The notes under the pieces are model-generated. The model saw only the letters and a program-made list of their open reading frames with translations. It was not told where the DNA came from and made no database searches. Below, one piece after another: positions 35,260 to 55,190 of a stretch of DNA of 64,000 bases (the stretch's first letter is position 1; the number at the start of each line of letters is the position of its first letter). Position numbers and translations under genes: made by a program. The DNA comes from Pseudomonas koreensis. Lineage in GTDB: Bacteria > Pseudomonadota > Gammaproteobacteria > Pseudomonadales > Pseudomonadaceae. The DNA is taken from assembly GCF_024169245.1 (NCBI RefSeq), contig NZ_JALJWP010000001.1:5565501-5629500 (forward strand), given 5' to 3'.

Positions 35260-35568
35260 ATGAGCGTTAGCTCGAGTAAGGCTTTTGATCTTGATCCACG
35301 GGCGACGTCGGAAGGCTGAGCGGAGGGATTGATCCGGGCGTGGGAGCGCAGCGACCGTTCGACGAAGTCGAACACAGCGGAAGGAGGTGCAGCGAAGCAA
35401 ACCGGAGCCGCTGCGCCCGGATCGATCCCGCAGCGAAGGAACCCGAGCCTGCGAGGGCCGAACGCAGGAGCAAGCCTTTTGGTTACTTTTTGGCGTCTGA
35501 AAAAGTGACTCGCCGTAAGGGCGAAACCGCCATCAGCAACACCCGAAGCAACCGATATACACCCAAAA
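35260..35568. repeat. dispersed structured element, copy A
   Basis: About 309 bp, ~80-90% identical by eye to 47685-48022 and 54848-55190. Hairpins: GAGC-GTTA-GCTC at the left end; a 16-bp long-range stem (35325-35340 with 35414-35429, one G-U pair); GTTCGAC-GAA-GTCGAAC (35357-35373); CAGCGG/CCGCTG (35375-35380 with 35408-35413); ACTTTTT/AAAAAGT (35485-35506); TCGCC/GGCGA (35510-35524). The right end is 2 bp from the stop of the LysR gene. No believable coding frame. Confidence 0.85.
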
Positions 35569-35570
35569 CT

Positions 35571-36569
35571 TCAAAGCAACCCCTCACTCTCCGGCAGCTC
35601 ATAAGCCACAGCCACATTGCTCCCGCCCATCGATTTCCCGGGCCTGCCCAACGTCGGCTCCTTCTGCAAACACTCCACCAGATAATCAATAAACACCCGC
35701 AACTTCGGTGGCAAATACCGCGTCGGCGAATGCAACAACCACAACCCACCATGATAGGAAGCCAGAAACGTCCACTCCGGCAGCACCTGCACAATCAGCT
35801 TCTGCTCCAAGGCGTAACGCGCGGTGAAATACGGCAGACTGCCAATGCCGATGTGCTGCAACACCGCCCCCAGCCGCACCCCGGTGTGATTGGCGGCATA
35901 GCGCCCACGCACGCCGACCGTCACCGCCTTGCTGCCCTTCTTGAATTTCCAGCGCGCATCGCTCGGCGTTTCACCCAGATAAATACAACTGTGATTGAGC
36001 AAGTCGTGAGGATGCGTCGGCGTGCCATGTTCGGCCAGGTATTGCGGCGTGGCGCAAAGCAAATGATCGATCGTCAGCAACTGCCGCCCGACCAGACCGG
36101 CCGGCGGCCGATCAGTAATACGAATCGCCAGATCAACGTGATCATCGATCAGATCGACCTGACGATCCTCCAACAGCAATTCGACATCGACCTTGGGGTA
36201 ACGCCGCAGAAACTCCGGCATGTGCGGATGAATCACAAAGCGCCCTACCGCTTTCGGCACGCTGACCCGCACCAGCCCTTCGGCTTCGTGGGTGAACTGG
36301 CCGCTGATTTCCATCACCGACCTGGCCGCGCTGACCATTTCCTGGCAACGCTTGAACACCTCCTCACCGCCATCGCTCAAGCGCAGTTTGCGCGTGGTGC
36401 GTTGCAGCAAGCGCGTGGCCAACGCCTTTTCCAATCGGGAAATGCTGCGGCTGACCGCTGAGGGAGACGACCCCATCTGCCGGGCCGCTTCAGAGAAGCT
36501 GCCGGTCTCGACAACCTTGACGAAAATCGCCATTTCACCCAGCAGCGGCAGCGGAAGATTGATGCTCAC
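35571..36569 (-). CDS. LysR family transcriptional regulator
   Basis: A 332-aa LTTR. The N-terminal winged helix-turn-helix is at about residues 10-70 (FVKVVETGSFSEAARQMG; SPSAVSRSISRLEKAL), followed by a periplasmic-binding-protein-like effector domain. The GTG start at 36569 (MSINLPLPLLGEMAIF) has AAAGGA 10 nt upstream. It is divergent from the alaX-oxygenase-lysE operon, with 89 bp between start codons, and by the usual LTTR logic it probably controls that operon. Element A begins 2 bp after its stop. Confidence 0.9.
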   Translation of the reverse strand: MSINLPLPLLGEMAIFVKVVETGSFSEAARQMGSSPSAVSRSISRLEKALATRLLQRTTRKLRLSDGGEEVFKRCQEMVSAARSVMEISGQFTHEAEGLVRVSVPKAVGRFVIHPHMPEFLRRYPKVDVELLLEDRQVDLIDDHVDLAIRITDRPPAGLVGRQLLTIDHLLCATPQYLAEHGTPTHPHDLLNHSCIYLGETPSDARWKFKKGSKAVTVGVRGRYAANHTGVRLGAVLQHIGIGSLPYFTARYALEQKLIVQVLPEWTFLASYHGGLWLLHSPTRYLPPKLRVFIDYLVECLQKEPTLGRPGKSMGGSNVAVAYELPESEGLL

Positions 36570-36599
36570 GACGCACAAGTCCTTTGATGTTCGGATGGA

Positions 36600-36628
36600 T
36601 TATCACGTTATTGCACGATTCATATAAT
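36600..36628 (+). promoter_or_regulatory. predicted promoter of the AlaX/oxygenase/LysE operon
   Basis: TTATCA, 17 nt, TATAAT; the -10 is a perfect match. It lies in the LysR-alaX intergenic region, giving a leader of ~25 nt. Confidence 0.6.
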
Positions 36629-36658
36629 AAAAACAGAACTTCGATCAGGGCATGGAAT

Positions 36659-37285
36659 ATGACGCTTCGCCTGTTTTTTCACAGTGATGACCTCAAGGCG
36701 AATGTCGAAGTCCTCGATTGCACACCACACGACAACGAATTCGCCGTGGTGCTGCGCGCCACCTTGTTCCATCCGCAGGGCGGCGGGCAGCCTTGCGATA
36801 CCGGCTGGATAGGTGAAAGCCAGGTCTCGCGAGTGGTGCAAGAGCCGGAGCGGATTGTGCATTTCGTCGACCGACCGGTGCCGTTGGGCATGACCGTTAT
36901 CCGCATCGATGAACAGCGCCGCCGCTTTAACACGCGCATGCACTCGGCCGGGCACTTGATCGGACATTTCATTCAAGCCATGGGCTGGATGCCAATCAAG
37001 GCGCATCACTGGCCGGACGAAGGCCGGGTGCAATTCAAGCCGGGTGATGGCGCTGAAGAAGTCGATGTGCCAAGGGTGCAAACCGGCATCGAGCAGTGGA
37101 TCGAACACGATCTGCCGCGCCTGACCTCCCTGCGCGAAGGCGCGCGGGAAATCAGTTTTGGTGAACTGCCGGCCTATGGCTGCGGTGGCACCCATGTACG
37201 CAGCCTGAAGGATCTGGGCACAGTCACGATCGCGTCGCTTTCACAGAAGAAGGGCACGCTATCCGTCCACTACAGCGTGGATTGA
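36659..37285 (+). CDS. AlaX-type aminoacyl-tRNA editing protein
   Basis: Free-standing homolog of the alanyl-tRNA synthetase editing domain, 208 aa. The zinc/active-site residues of the family are present: HxxxH at H95/H99 (RMHSAGHLIGH) and CxxxH at C174/H178 (YGCGGTHVR). An OB-like N-terminal part carries the LFHPQGGGQP signature. Known AlaX proteins remove Ser or Gly from tRNA-Ala. As the first gene of an operon with an amino-acid-type oxygenase and an exporter it may instead, or also, clear tRNA charged with the modified amino acid; that is inference. Start MTLRLFFHSDD at 36659; an upstream frame from 36584 overlaps the promoter. Confidence 0.9.
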   Translation: MTLRLFFHSDDLKANVEVLDCTPHDNEFAVVLRATLFHPQGGGQPCDTGWIGESQVSRVVQEPERIVHFVDRPVPLGMTVIRIDEQRRRFNTRMHSAGHLIGHFIQAMGWMPIKAHHWPDEGRVQFKPGDGAEEVDVPRVQTGIEQWIEHDLPRLTSLREGAREISFGELPAYGCGGTHVRSLKDLGTVTIASLSQKKGTLSVHYSVD

Positions 37286-53695: not shown

Positions 53696-53706
53696 AACAG
53701 AAGATC

Positions 53707-53782
53707 AAAAGATCGCAGCGTTCCGCAGCTCCTACAGGTGTTCACATGACCCTGTAGGAGCTGCCGAAGGCTGCGATCTTTT
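53707..53782. repeat. inverted REP doublet touching the pyrF stop codon
   Basis: Units at 53707-53737 and 53751-53782, opposite orientation. The TAA of pyrF (53781-53783) overlaps the outer edge of the second unit. Confidence 0.9.
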
Positions 53783-54479
53783 AGGCGATTTCGGCTACGA
53801 CTGCGGCCAACGCCTGCGCCGGATCCGCCGCCTGGCTGATTGGACGGCCGATCACCAGATAATCGGAACCGGCATCCAGCGCCTGACGCGGAGTCAGAAT
53901 CCGCCGTTGGTCGTCCTGCGCGCTACCGGCCGGACGAATACCCGGAGTCACCAGTTGCAGCGACGGGTGCGCGGTTTTCAGCGCCGAAGCTTCCAGTGCC
54001 GAACACACCAAACCATCCAGCCCGGCCTTCTCGGCCAGTGCCGCCAGACGCAGCACTTGCTCCTGCGGCTCGATATCCAGACCGATACCGGCGAGATCTT
54101 CACGCTCCATGCTGGTCAGCACGGTCACGCCGATCAACAGCGGTTGCGGACCGTTGCGCTTGTCCAGCTCCTCACGGCAAGCGGCCATCATGCGCAGGCC
54201 GCCAGAGCAGTGCACGTTGACCATCCACACACCCATCTCGGCAGCGGCTTTAACAGCCATCGCGGTGGTGTTGGGGATGTCGTGGAATTTCAGGTCCAGG
54301 AACACTTCAAAACCCTTGTCACGCAAGGTACCGACGATTTCCGCCGCGCAACTGGTGAACAGTTCCTTGCCCACTTTGACCCGGCACAGTTTCGGGTCCA
54401 ACTGATCGGCCAGCTTCAGTGCGGCGTCACGGGTGGGGAAATCCAGGGCGACGATGATAGGAGTCTGGCAGACGGACAT
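53781..54479 (-). CDS. pyrF: orotidine 5'-phosphate decarboxylase
   Basis: Last step of UMP synthesis. The 232-aa TIM-barrel has the catalytic Asp-x-Lys-x-x-Asp block in [12 protein letters not shown], the N-terminal VALDFPTRD, and phosphate-binding GIRPAG and YLVIGRPIS. The start [10 protein letters not shown] at 54479 fits the family; upstream codons do not. The stop codon merges with a REP unit. Confidence 0.96.
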
Positions 54480-54529
54480 GGATGGGCTCTCAGGCTGGAC
54501 GAAAACGGCGCGCATTGTAGCAGAGTTGG

Positions 54530-54847
54530 TTGACTGCCAGGCCCCATCGCTGGCAAGCCTGCTCCCCAGGAGTTGTGTCGCTTCAGGGAGAGATGGGTTG
54601 GCTGTCAGGCTGCCTTCGCGAGCAGGCTCACTCCTACAGTTTGGATCGCGTGCGTTGAGTTAGAGATGGGTTGGCTGCCAGGCCGCCTTCGCGAGCAAGC
54701 TCACTCCTACAGTTTGGATCGCGTGCGTTGAGTTAGAGATGAGTCGACTGCTAGGCTGCCTTAGCGAGCAAGCTCGCTCCCACAGAACAGCAAAATCAAA
54801 ATCAAAATCAAAATCAAAAGATCGCAGCCTTCGGCAGCTCCTACCTA
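54530..54847. repeat. tandem 73-bp REP-type repeats and a CAAAAT microrepeat
   Basis: The phrase AGAGATG(G/A)GT recurs at 54589, 54662 and 54735, an exact 73-bp period; each unit carries a (G/C)CGAGCA(G/A)GCTC(A/G)CTCC palindrome. Then come CAAAAT hexamers (54791-54820) and one GATCGCAGCC REP. No gene was seen in 54480-55195 beyond these repeats and element C. Confidence 0.85.
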
Positions 54848-55190
54848 CGATGAGCGTTAGCTCGAGTTCCGCTTTTGATCCTGGAGCCCGTCGGCAGGCT
54901 GAGCGGAGGGATTGATGCGGGCGTGGGAGCGCAGCGACCGTACGACGCAGTTGTACACAGCGGAAGGAGGTGCAGCGAAGCAAACCGGAGCCGCTGCGCC
55001 CGGATCGATCCCGCAGCGACGGAACCCCGAGCCTCAGCGAGCGGGCCGAACGTCAGGGCACAGACCTTTGGTTCCTTTGGGGCGTTTGCCAAAGGGACTC
55101 GCCGTAAGGGCGAAACCATAAGAAGCCGTTACCGCAGCAACGGATATGTACACAAACAACCCAACGCTTGGTCGGCCCAAAGGCCGCCAA
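54848..55190. repeat. dispersed structured element, copy C
   Basis: Third copy. Stems: GTACGAC-GCA-GTTGTAC (54940-54956, one G-U pair), CCTTTGG/CCAAAGG (55074-55095), and long-range 54908-54923 with 54997-55012. The right edge is 5 bp from the stop of the AI-2E-family gene. Confidence 0.85.

Follow-up and report, generated by a model that had tools for sequence, protein, structure and literature searches.

A dispersed structured element of Pseudomonas koreensis that shares its 3' module with TwoAYGGAY loci, lies behind gene ends and, when unpaired, faces the replication fork

We analysed a window of 64,000 nucleotides from Pseudomonas koreensis (contig NZ_JALJWP010000001.1, positions 5,565,501 to 5,629,500 of the forward strand), which carries three copies of a structured element of about 300 bases, starting at 35260, 47685 and 54848 as the original prediction had it. 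Copies of this element are placed behind gene ends, form divergent pairs of an A-type and a B-type copy and, when unpaired, lie head-on to replication in five genomes. We tentatively favour, at a probability somewhat short of even, that the element is a lineage variant of an old and widespread structured element, which would work as a sense-strand RNA, spread slowly within chromosomes and take its orientation from the replication fork.

Copies and covarying helices

The three copies are not a chance likeness, since blastn with copy 3 as query finds at least 43 places in the 5.97-Mb chromosome of the same genome, hereafter the own genome (55 candidates, 40 scored). This genome-wide collection of homologs, a check that had been proposed with the original prediction, gives a dispersed family of about forty copies in the own genome, and 206 of the 249 genomes sampled across the genus, the own one included, carry a match. 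Over 39 own copies the median length is 301 bases and the mean GC content 61.7%. Each copy of about 300 bases is built from a 5' hairpin, a 16-base long-range stem around hairpin 1, and a 3' module (hairpins 2 and 3 and a weak hairpin 4), with its terminus near GGATAT (Table 1). Three fragmentary copies of the 43 were left out of the own-genome alignment (40 copies), and relatives' hits spanning at most 285 model positions were excluded, leaving 59 and hence 99 aligned copies. In two loci (L031 and L032) the element stands in tandem triples (5060130/5060588/5061032 and 3611592/3612176/3612763). A protein-coding gene was considered and rejected: the tested part differs among the 39 copies in its length modulo 3 (22, 14 and 3), an open frame is shared by at most 21/39 copies, and the element has no match in PHROG (three readings) or Pfam (four readings).

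The three hairpin 1 variants on which the original prediction was built (GTTCGAC/GTCGAAC, GTACGAC/GTCGTAC and GTACGAC/GTTGTAC, the last with one G.U pair on the + strand of copy 3) were confirmed, as was the 16-bp long-range stem. For hairpin 2, the sequences and the GGCGT(C/T)TG loop hold, but the actual stem is longer than had been drawn. Although three copies alone offer few independent change events in hairpin 1, this helix could be read in 98 copies from the own genome and relatives (one of the 99 rows was excluded for a gap) and takes 23 different versions, with 669 Watson-Crick, 8 G.U, 0 A.C and 9 other combinations among 686 pair cells. In the own genome its three common forms make up 15, 15 and 6 of 41 regular-expression hits, two of which are not the element. 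By mutual information over the 40 own copies, stem pairs (97-100% canonical) account for five of the ten highest-ranking column pairs; the rest comprise two cross-pairs within the same stem, two pairs that we attribute to misalignment of hairpin 2, and the non-canonical pair 308-312.

The 3' module was aligned separately (alignment A1, 44 rows hand-picked from 131 modules). There, 93.8% of 875 cells are paired versus 84.8% in shuffles, two-sided changes number 78 versus 27.0 (standard deviation 6.6), and the covariation score is 0.248 versus 0.100, with 0/500 shuffles as high on each of the three measures. The shuffles were not beaten by the count of pairs that show any two-sided change (7 versus 6.2, 204/500) or by the number of further pair types (12 versus 13.7, 478/500). 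A second alignment (A2, 79 of 154 eligible modules) is 100% paired by construction, because its parser demanded pairing. Helices 1 and 3 of the module are 100% paired in the 44 rows, helix 3 has two-sided changes at 2/5 pairs, and one U.G pair is retained at the same place in 41/44 modules.

These changes are not symmetrical between the strands. At position 4 of the hairpin 2 stem, 208 modules, collected by a search that admitted G.U and A.C alike, hold 73 G.U and 0 A.C; over the outer stem, with the uncertain first position left out, the counts are 73 and 4. Because hairpins 1 and 2 tolerate G.U but almost never show A.C, the strand kept foldable at these two helices is the sense (+) strand of the window copies. 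Hairpin 3 has Watson-Crick pairs only, and therefore may fold on either strand. The consensus fold by RNAalifold is also lower on the sense strand, both for the 40 own copies (-83.0 versus -57.5 on the opposite strand) and for the 99 copies (-43.9 versus -26.3). Altogether, the recurring two-sided changes in hairpin 1 and the 3' module, G.U without A.C, and a covarying pairing upstream of hairpin 2 (below) support the original prediction in its claim of selection on RNA or on a folded single strand. The opposite case is that of a dead repeat, whose apparent compensation would come from arm-to-arm template switching in palindromes combined with gene conversion among copies. A few hairpin versions do recur in mosaic combinations among own copies, as this would have it, yet template switching would tend to erase the retained U.G pair, and neither the loop-upstream pairing nor the breadth of occurrence is explained; we consider it very improbable.

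The 3' module, its predicted pseudoknot and TwoAYGGAY

The hairpin 2 loop and the bases directly 5' of the hairpin are complementary, a pairing that was absent from the original prediction. Over 89 distinct loops from 257 modules, mean duplex energy is -7.02 with the loop's own partner and -5.73 (standard deviation 0.17) with swapped partners, and 0/2000 permutations were as low, in a statistic that ignores relatedness among modules; the parser demanded pairing in hairpin 2 and nothing upstream. The adjacent upstream bases also pair better than the more distant upstream bases of the same loci (76 loops, -6.44 versus -4.67, p 1.8e-7). This pairing, which covaries across taxa, predicts a pseudoknot.

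A covariance model of the 3' module (R1), another of the checks first proposed, found relatives across the class: it matches 29 of 368 genomes other than the own one (E<=0.001, about 28-43 bits) and, with the own genus counted, 25 of 272 genera, some genomes carrying many copies. An exact pattern picked out at least 118 stretches in named genomes. Among the 80 stretches listed are Pseudomonas, Xanthomonas, Lysobacter, Methylobacter, Methylophilus, Thiobacillus, Aggregatibacter and Rhodoferax; four of the 80 carry Clostridia names (three are rows from metagenome-assembled genomes), which could be chance or contamination.

What precedes this module elsewhere is a described RNA motif. Rfam finds TwoAYGGAY (RF01731) in 13/14 loci with the same 3' module, several of them divergent pairs: all 12 loci of the genus and one from another genus of the family, the miss coming from another family. 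Among loci from named genomes or the class, the motif is found in 2/10. All 18 TwoAYGGAY rows lie directly 5' of the 3' module on the same strand (positions compared by eye), and in Aggregatibacter this same place and strand is taken by the Rfam small-RNA family AaHKsRNA22 (RF02902). The window copies differ. At gathering score, Rfam reports only rne-II and four tRNAs in the whole window, none at the copies; at E<5, copy 3 matches Sr006 alone (16.6 bits, cut-off 100) and not RF01731; and six own A-B pair loci give no TwoAYGGAY match at E<1. The window copies also lack two hairpins with AYGGAY loops, and their hairpin 1 loops are CGNAG-like. Since TwoAYGGAY precedes the same 3' module elsewhere and is absent from copy 3 and the own pair loci, we read the window type as a probable variant in which the AYGGAY hairpins were replaced and the 3' module kept. 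In L098 (2801-2890) and L112 (2802-2891), a C4 antisense RNA match lies between two divergent modules.

TwoAYGGAY is listed for human gut, Gammaproteobacteria and Clostridiales (PMC2864571), and a CsrA-binding role has been proposed for it (PMC4333381); the passages of these two papers on the motif mention no 3' module, pseudoknot, pairs or fork orientation. The window element could likewise be an RNA that binds CsrA/RsmA, and on the sense strand of the relative in L098 two hairpin loops read AUGGAU. However, no whole ANGGA motif falls inside a predicted hairpin loop in the folds of the three window copies, and copy 3 lacks the RF01731 match, so that we hold this explanation to be highly doubtful.

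The original prediction recognised no described family. This stands as far as Rfam matches to the window copies go, but the 3' module is common to TwoAYGGAY elements, and repeats of matching size are in print. The intergenic repeats R200 (320 bp, 60.25% GC) and R26 (352 bp, 60.76% GC) of P. fluorescens (Silby 2009, PMC2718517) are close to the element in size and GC content and likewise stand between genes in tens of copies. The window element is perhaps R200 or R26 on these general features; Table 3 of that paper gives no structure for them. Further Pseudomonas families in print are Pae-1 to 4, Ppu-1 to 4 and Ppu-9 (PMC2267715).

Gene ends, divergent pairs and the replication fork

In the own genome, a convergent gene lies beyond the 3' end of 34/42 copies, and 26 of these 34 genes have their stop codon within 106 bases (genes called with a home-made open reading frame (ORF) score; one fragment of the 43 was left out of the gene-context and orientation counts). 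This placement makes a role as terminator or insulator of the neighbouring convergent gene a serious rival, although we judge it improbable as the explanation of the element: transcription leaving that gene would be stopped on the - strand by hairpin 3 and, after it, the T-rich arm of hairpin 2, and a pair would serve two convergent genes. In copies 1 and 2, hairpin 3 read on the - strand is indeed followed by a T-rich tail. The same terminator rule is met by 218/257 modules (20/23 own, 57/82 from elsewhere in the genus and 141/152 from the class and named-genome scans), although partly by construction, since modules were chosen via TTTG/CTT anchors. A hairpin 3 without G.U is what folding on either strand would lead one to expect, and a tail-to-tail bias among repeats is reported by Silby 2009 (PMC2718517). 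On the other side, the sites in copies 1 and 2 (one each) are not above shuffles (0.7 and 1.0), and the three sites of copy 3 (0.6 in shuffles) do not lie at hairpin 3. The G.U strand of hairpins 1 and 2, the pseudoknot and the fork orientation are not explained by a terminator, and neighbouring genes do not share that orientation (below).

The divergent pairs consist of one A-type and one reversed B-type copy with their 5' ends facing each other, a layout that is also seen in a distant genome (G334). Near two own A-B pairs, other RNAs are matched: cobalamin riboswitches on both sides of one (L035, 3567-3786 and 4592-4803), and the small RNA PhrS (L038, 3243-3458, 160.8 bits), whose match ends only bases away from another pair's A copy.

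Relative to dnaA (1,297,966) and a dif-like site (4,309,427), every one of the 30 unpaired own copies counted is head-on to the fork. Over five genomes (G000, G098, G019, G005 and G203), this holds for 100/103 unpaired copies, and the other three are B-like copies that have an A-like partner or remnant on their other side. Within pairs, the head-on member is the more A-like one in 17/17 cases from G098, G019, G005 and G203 (some by small margins) and in 1/2 from G010; own pairs were omitted from this scoring because own B copies had served to build the B model. In the five genomes, the first 17% of a replichore holds none of the listed copies. Genes near own copies are 53% leading (111/208, home-made ORF caller), and 6/36 head-on own copies have a same-strand gene downstream, which shows that gene orientation is no explanation for the fork bias. 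Literature searches for the element's motif strings and for repeats with a replication orientation found no earlier report, and as far as these searches reach the fork orientation of unpaired copies, the A-B divergent pairs and the convergent-gene placement are new.

The gene next to copy 3 is present in 25 genomes, the own one included, and we read this locus in 15 of them. Two of them, the own genome and G016, carry the element, G019 has it interrupted and G011 keeps a remnant; in the other 11 it did not appear within the 560 bases read (in G020 the reading started 328 bases late). Among 72,556 plasmid records one matches copy 3, and among 50,697 phage records none does; a TwoAYGGAY-type copy occurs in one plasmid and one phage record. 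Because the locus is patchy and these records are nearly empty, the spread looks slow and within chromosomes, with vertical descent.

Many copies are interleaved with REP-like hairpins. REPINs and REP sequences resemble the element in being chromosomal, dispersed, hairpin-forming and arranged in inverted pairs, whereas the element has several helices, a conserved 3' module and two unequal partners. It is also about ten times longer than REPs, given as 21-28 bp for IR1_g in PMC2718517. The element could instead be a non-autonomous mobile element, moved at forks as folded single-stranded DNA by an HUH enzyme (IS200/IS605-type or RAYT-like), with the hairpins as signals and fork coupling fixing the orientation. 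Dispersal and copy number, presence, remnant or absence at one locus, orientation to the fork and the REP-like hairpins all agree with this; IS200/IS605 elements, which share hairpins and a replication-linked orientation, insert into and leave the lagging-strand template (PMC6006769). The B partners' folded strand would lie on that template. The folded sense strand of the A copies, however, would lie on the leading-strand template, opposite to the known route; the scarcity of matches among plasmid and phage records also weighs against it, and no target or end signature was found. We regard this explanation as unlikely.

Weighing the readings

The reading we favour, an old structured element in a lineage-specific form, would work as follows. 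Its 3' part would be a hairpin with a predicted loop-upstream pseudoknot and then a second hairpin, joined elsewhere to a 5' part in the form of TwoAYGGAY. The working form would most likely be an RNA read from the sense strand. Copies would move slowly inside chromosomes, not via plasmids or phages, and their orientation would be fixed when a copy or an A-B pair inserts at, or survives, a passing fork.

Several observations weigh against this reading. Single-stranded DNA can likewise form pseudoknots and G.T pairs, which leaves the RNA form unproved; no sigma-70-like promoter was found at the three window copies; and, as the terminator would have it, terminator-like sites do coincide with hairpin 3 on the - strand of copies 1 and 2. 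In helix 4 of the module, pairing is 84% and two-sided changes are lacking, and the pseudoknot test on 11 Pseudomonas loops alone is not significant (172/2000). At the copy 3 locus (15/25 genomes), no insertion boundary or target duplication was found and no empty site could be aligned. The orientation counts over copies and genomes are not independent, given tandem copies and shared descent, and the bias is weaker in two further genomes of the genus (8/9 in G010, 57/79 in G168). It is absent in the P. syringae-like KUIN-1 (13/29), Methylobacter marinus (6/16) and a Thiotrichales metagenome-assembled genome (7/12, one overlapping hit of 15 omitted), for all three of which the terminus was placed at the antipode; G282, M. 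tundripaludum and Xanthomonas F10 were searched and left out of the scoring. Because the bias is weaker or absent in these genomes, the fork lock belongs to the window-type A element and not to the superfamily at large. G168 itself holds 83 modules in a 6-Mb chromosome, some near the origin, an expansion unlike the window type.

A bolder form of the favoured reading, to which we give a low probability, is that A and B together make a two-part chromosomal element that in this Pseudomonas lineage is actively locked to the direction of replication, a folded RNA or DNA signal that would mark fork direction behind gene ends; it would be built on a module shared by Proteobacteria. A fork orientation that far exceeds that of genes at the same loci would link a structured repeat to replication or, alternatively, reveal replication-coupled spreading. 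For TwoAYGGAY, an orphan RNA motif since 2010, membership in a larger, paired, multi-copy element whose 3' module is conserved gives borders and a testable genomic logic.

Table 1. Coordinates, in the window, of the element copies, their helices and the bordering genes
Feature	Copy 1	Copy 2	Copy 3	Strand	Remarks
Element	35260..35566	47685..48025	54848..55188	+	Copy 1: A type, unpaired, own-genome 5600760-5601067 (+); copies 2 and 3 carry the optional downstream hairpin
5' hairpin GAGC-GTTA-GCTC	35262..35273	47689-47700	54852-54863	+	Variants among own copies
Long-range stem (arms)	35325-35340 / 35414-35429	47745-47760/47834-47849	54908-54923/54997-55012	+	RNAalifold support (40 own copies)
Hairpin 1	35357..35373	47777..47793	54940..54956	+	
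Predicted pseudoknot, 5' strand	35460..35466	47885-47891	55048-55054	+	Pairs with the hairpin 2 loop
Hairpin 2	35481..35509	47907..47935	55070..55098	+	
Hairpin 3 TCGCC-GTAAG-GGCGA	35510..35524	47936-47950	55099-55113	+	
Optional downstream hairpin GGTCGGCC-CAAA-GGCCGCC		48007..48025	55170-55188	+	Not found in copy 1
LysR-type regulator gene	35571..36578			-	Ends a few bases past copy 1
Methyl-accepting chemotaxis protein gene		48031..50226		-	Ends a few bases past copy 2
AI-2E family transporter gene			55196..56251	-	Ends a few bases past copy 3

Elsewhere in the window, a tRNA-Gly(gcc) and tRNA-Glu(ttc) pair is present in two tandem copies on the - strand (45478-45890), and the rne-II RNA (RF01756) is matched at 12713-12981 with 272 bits.

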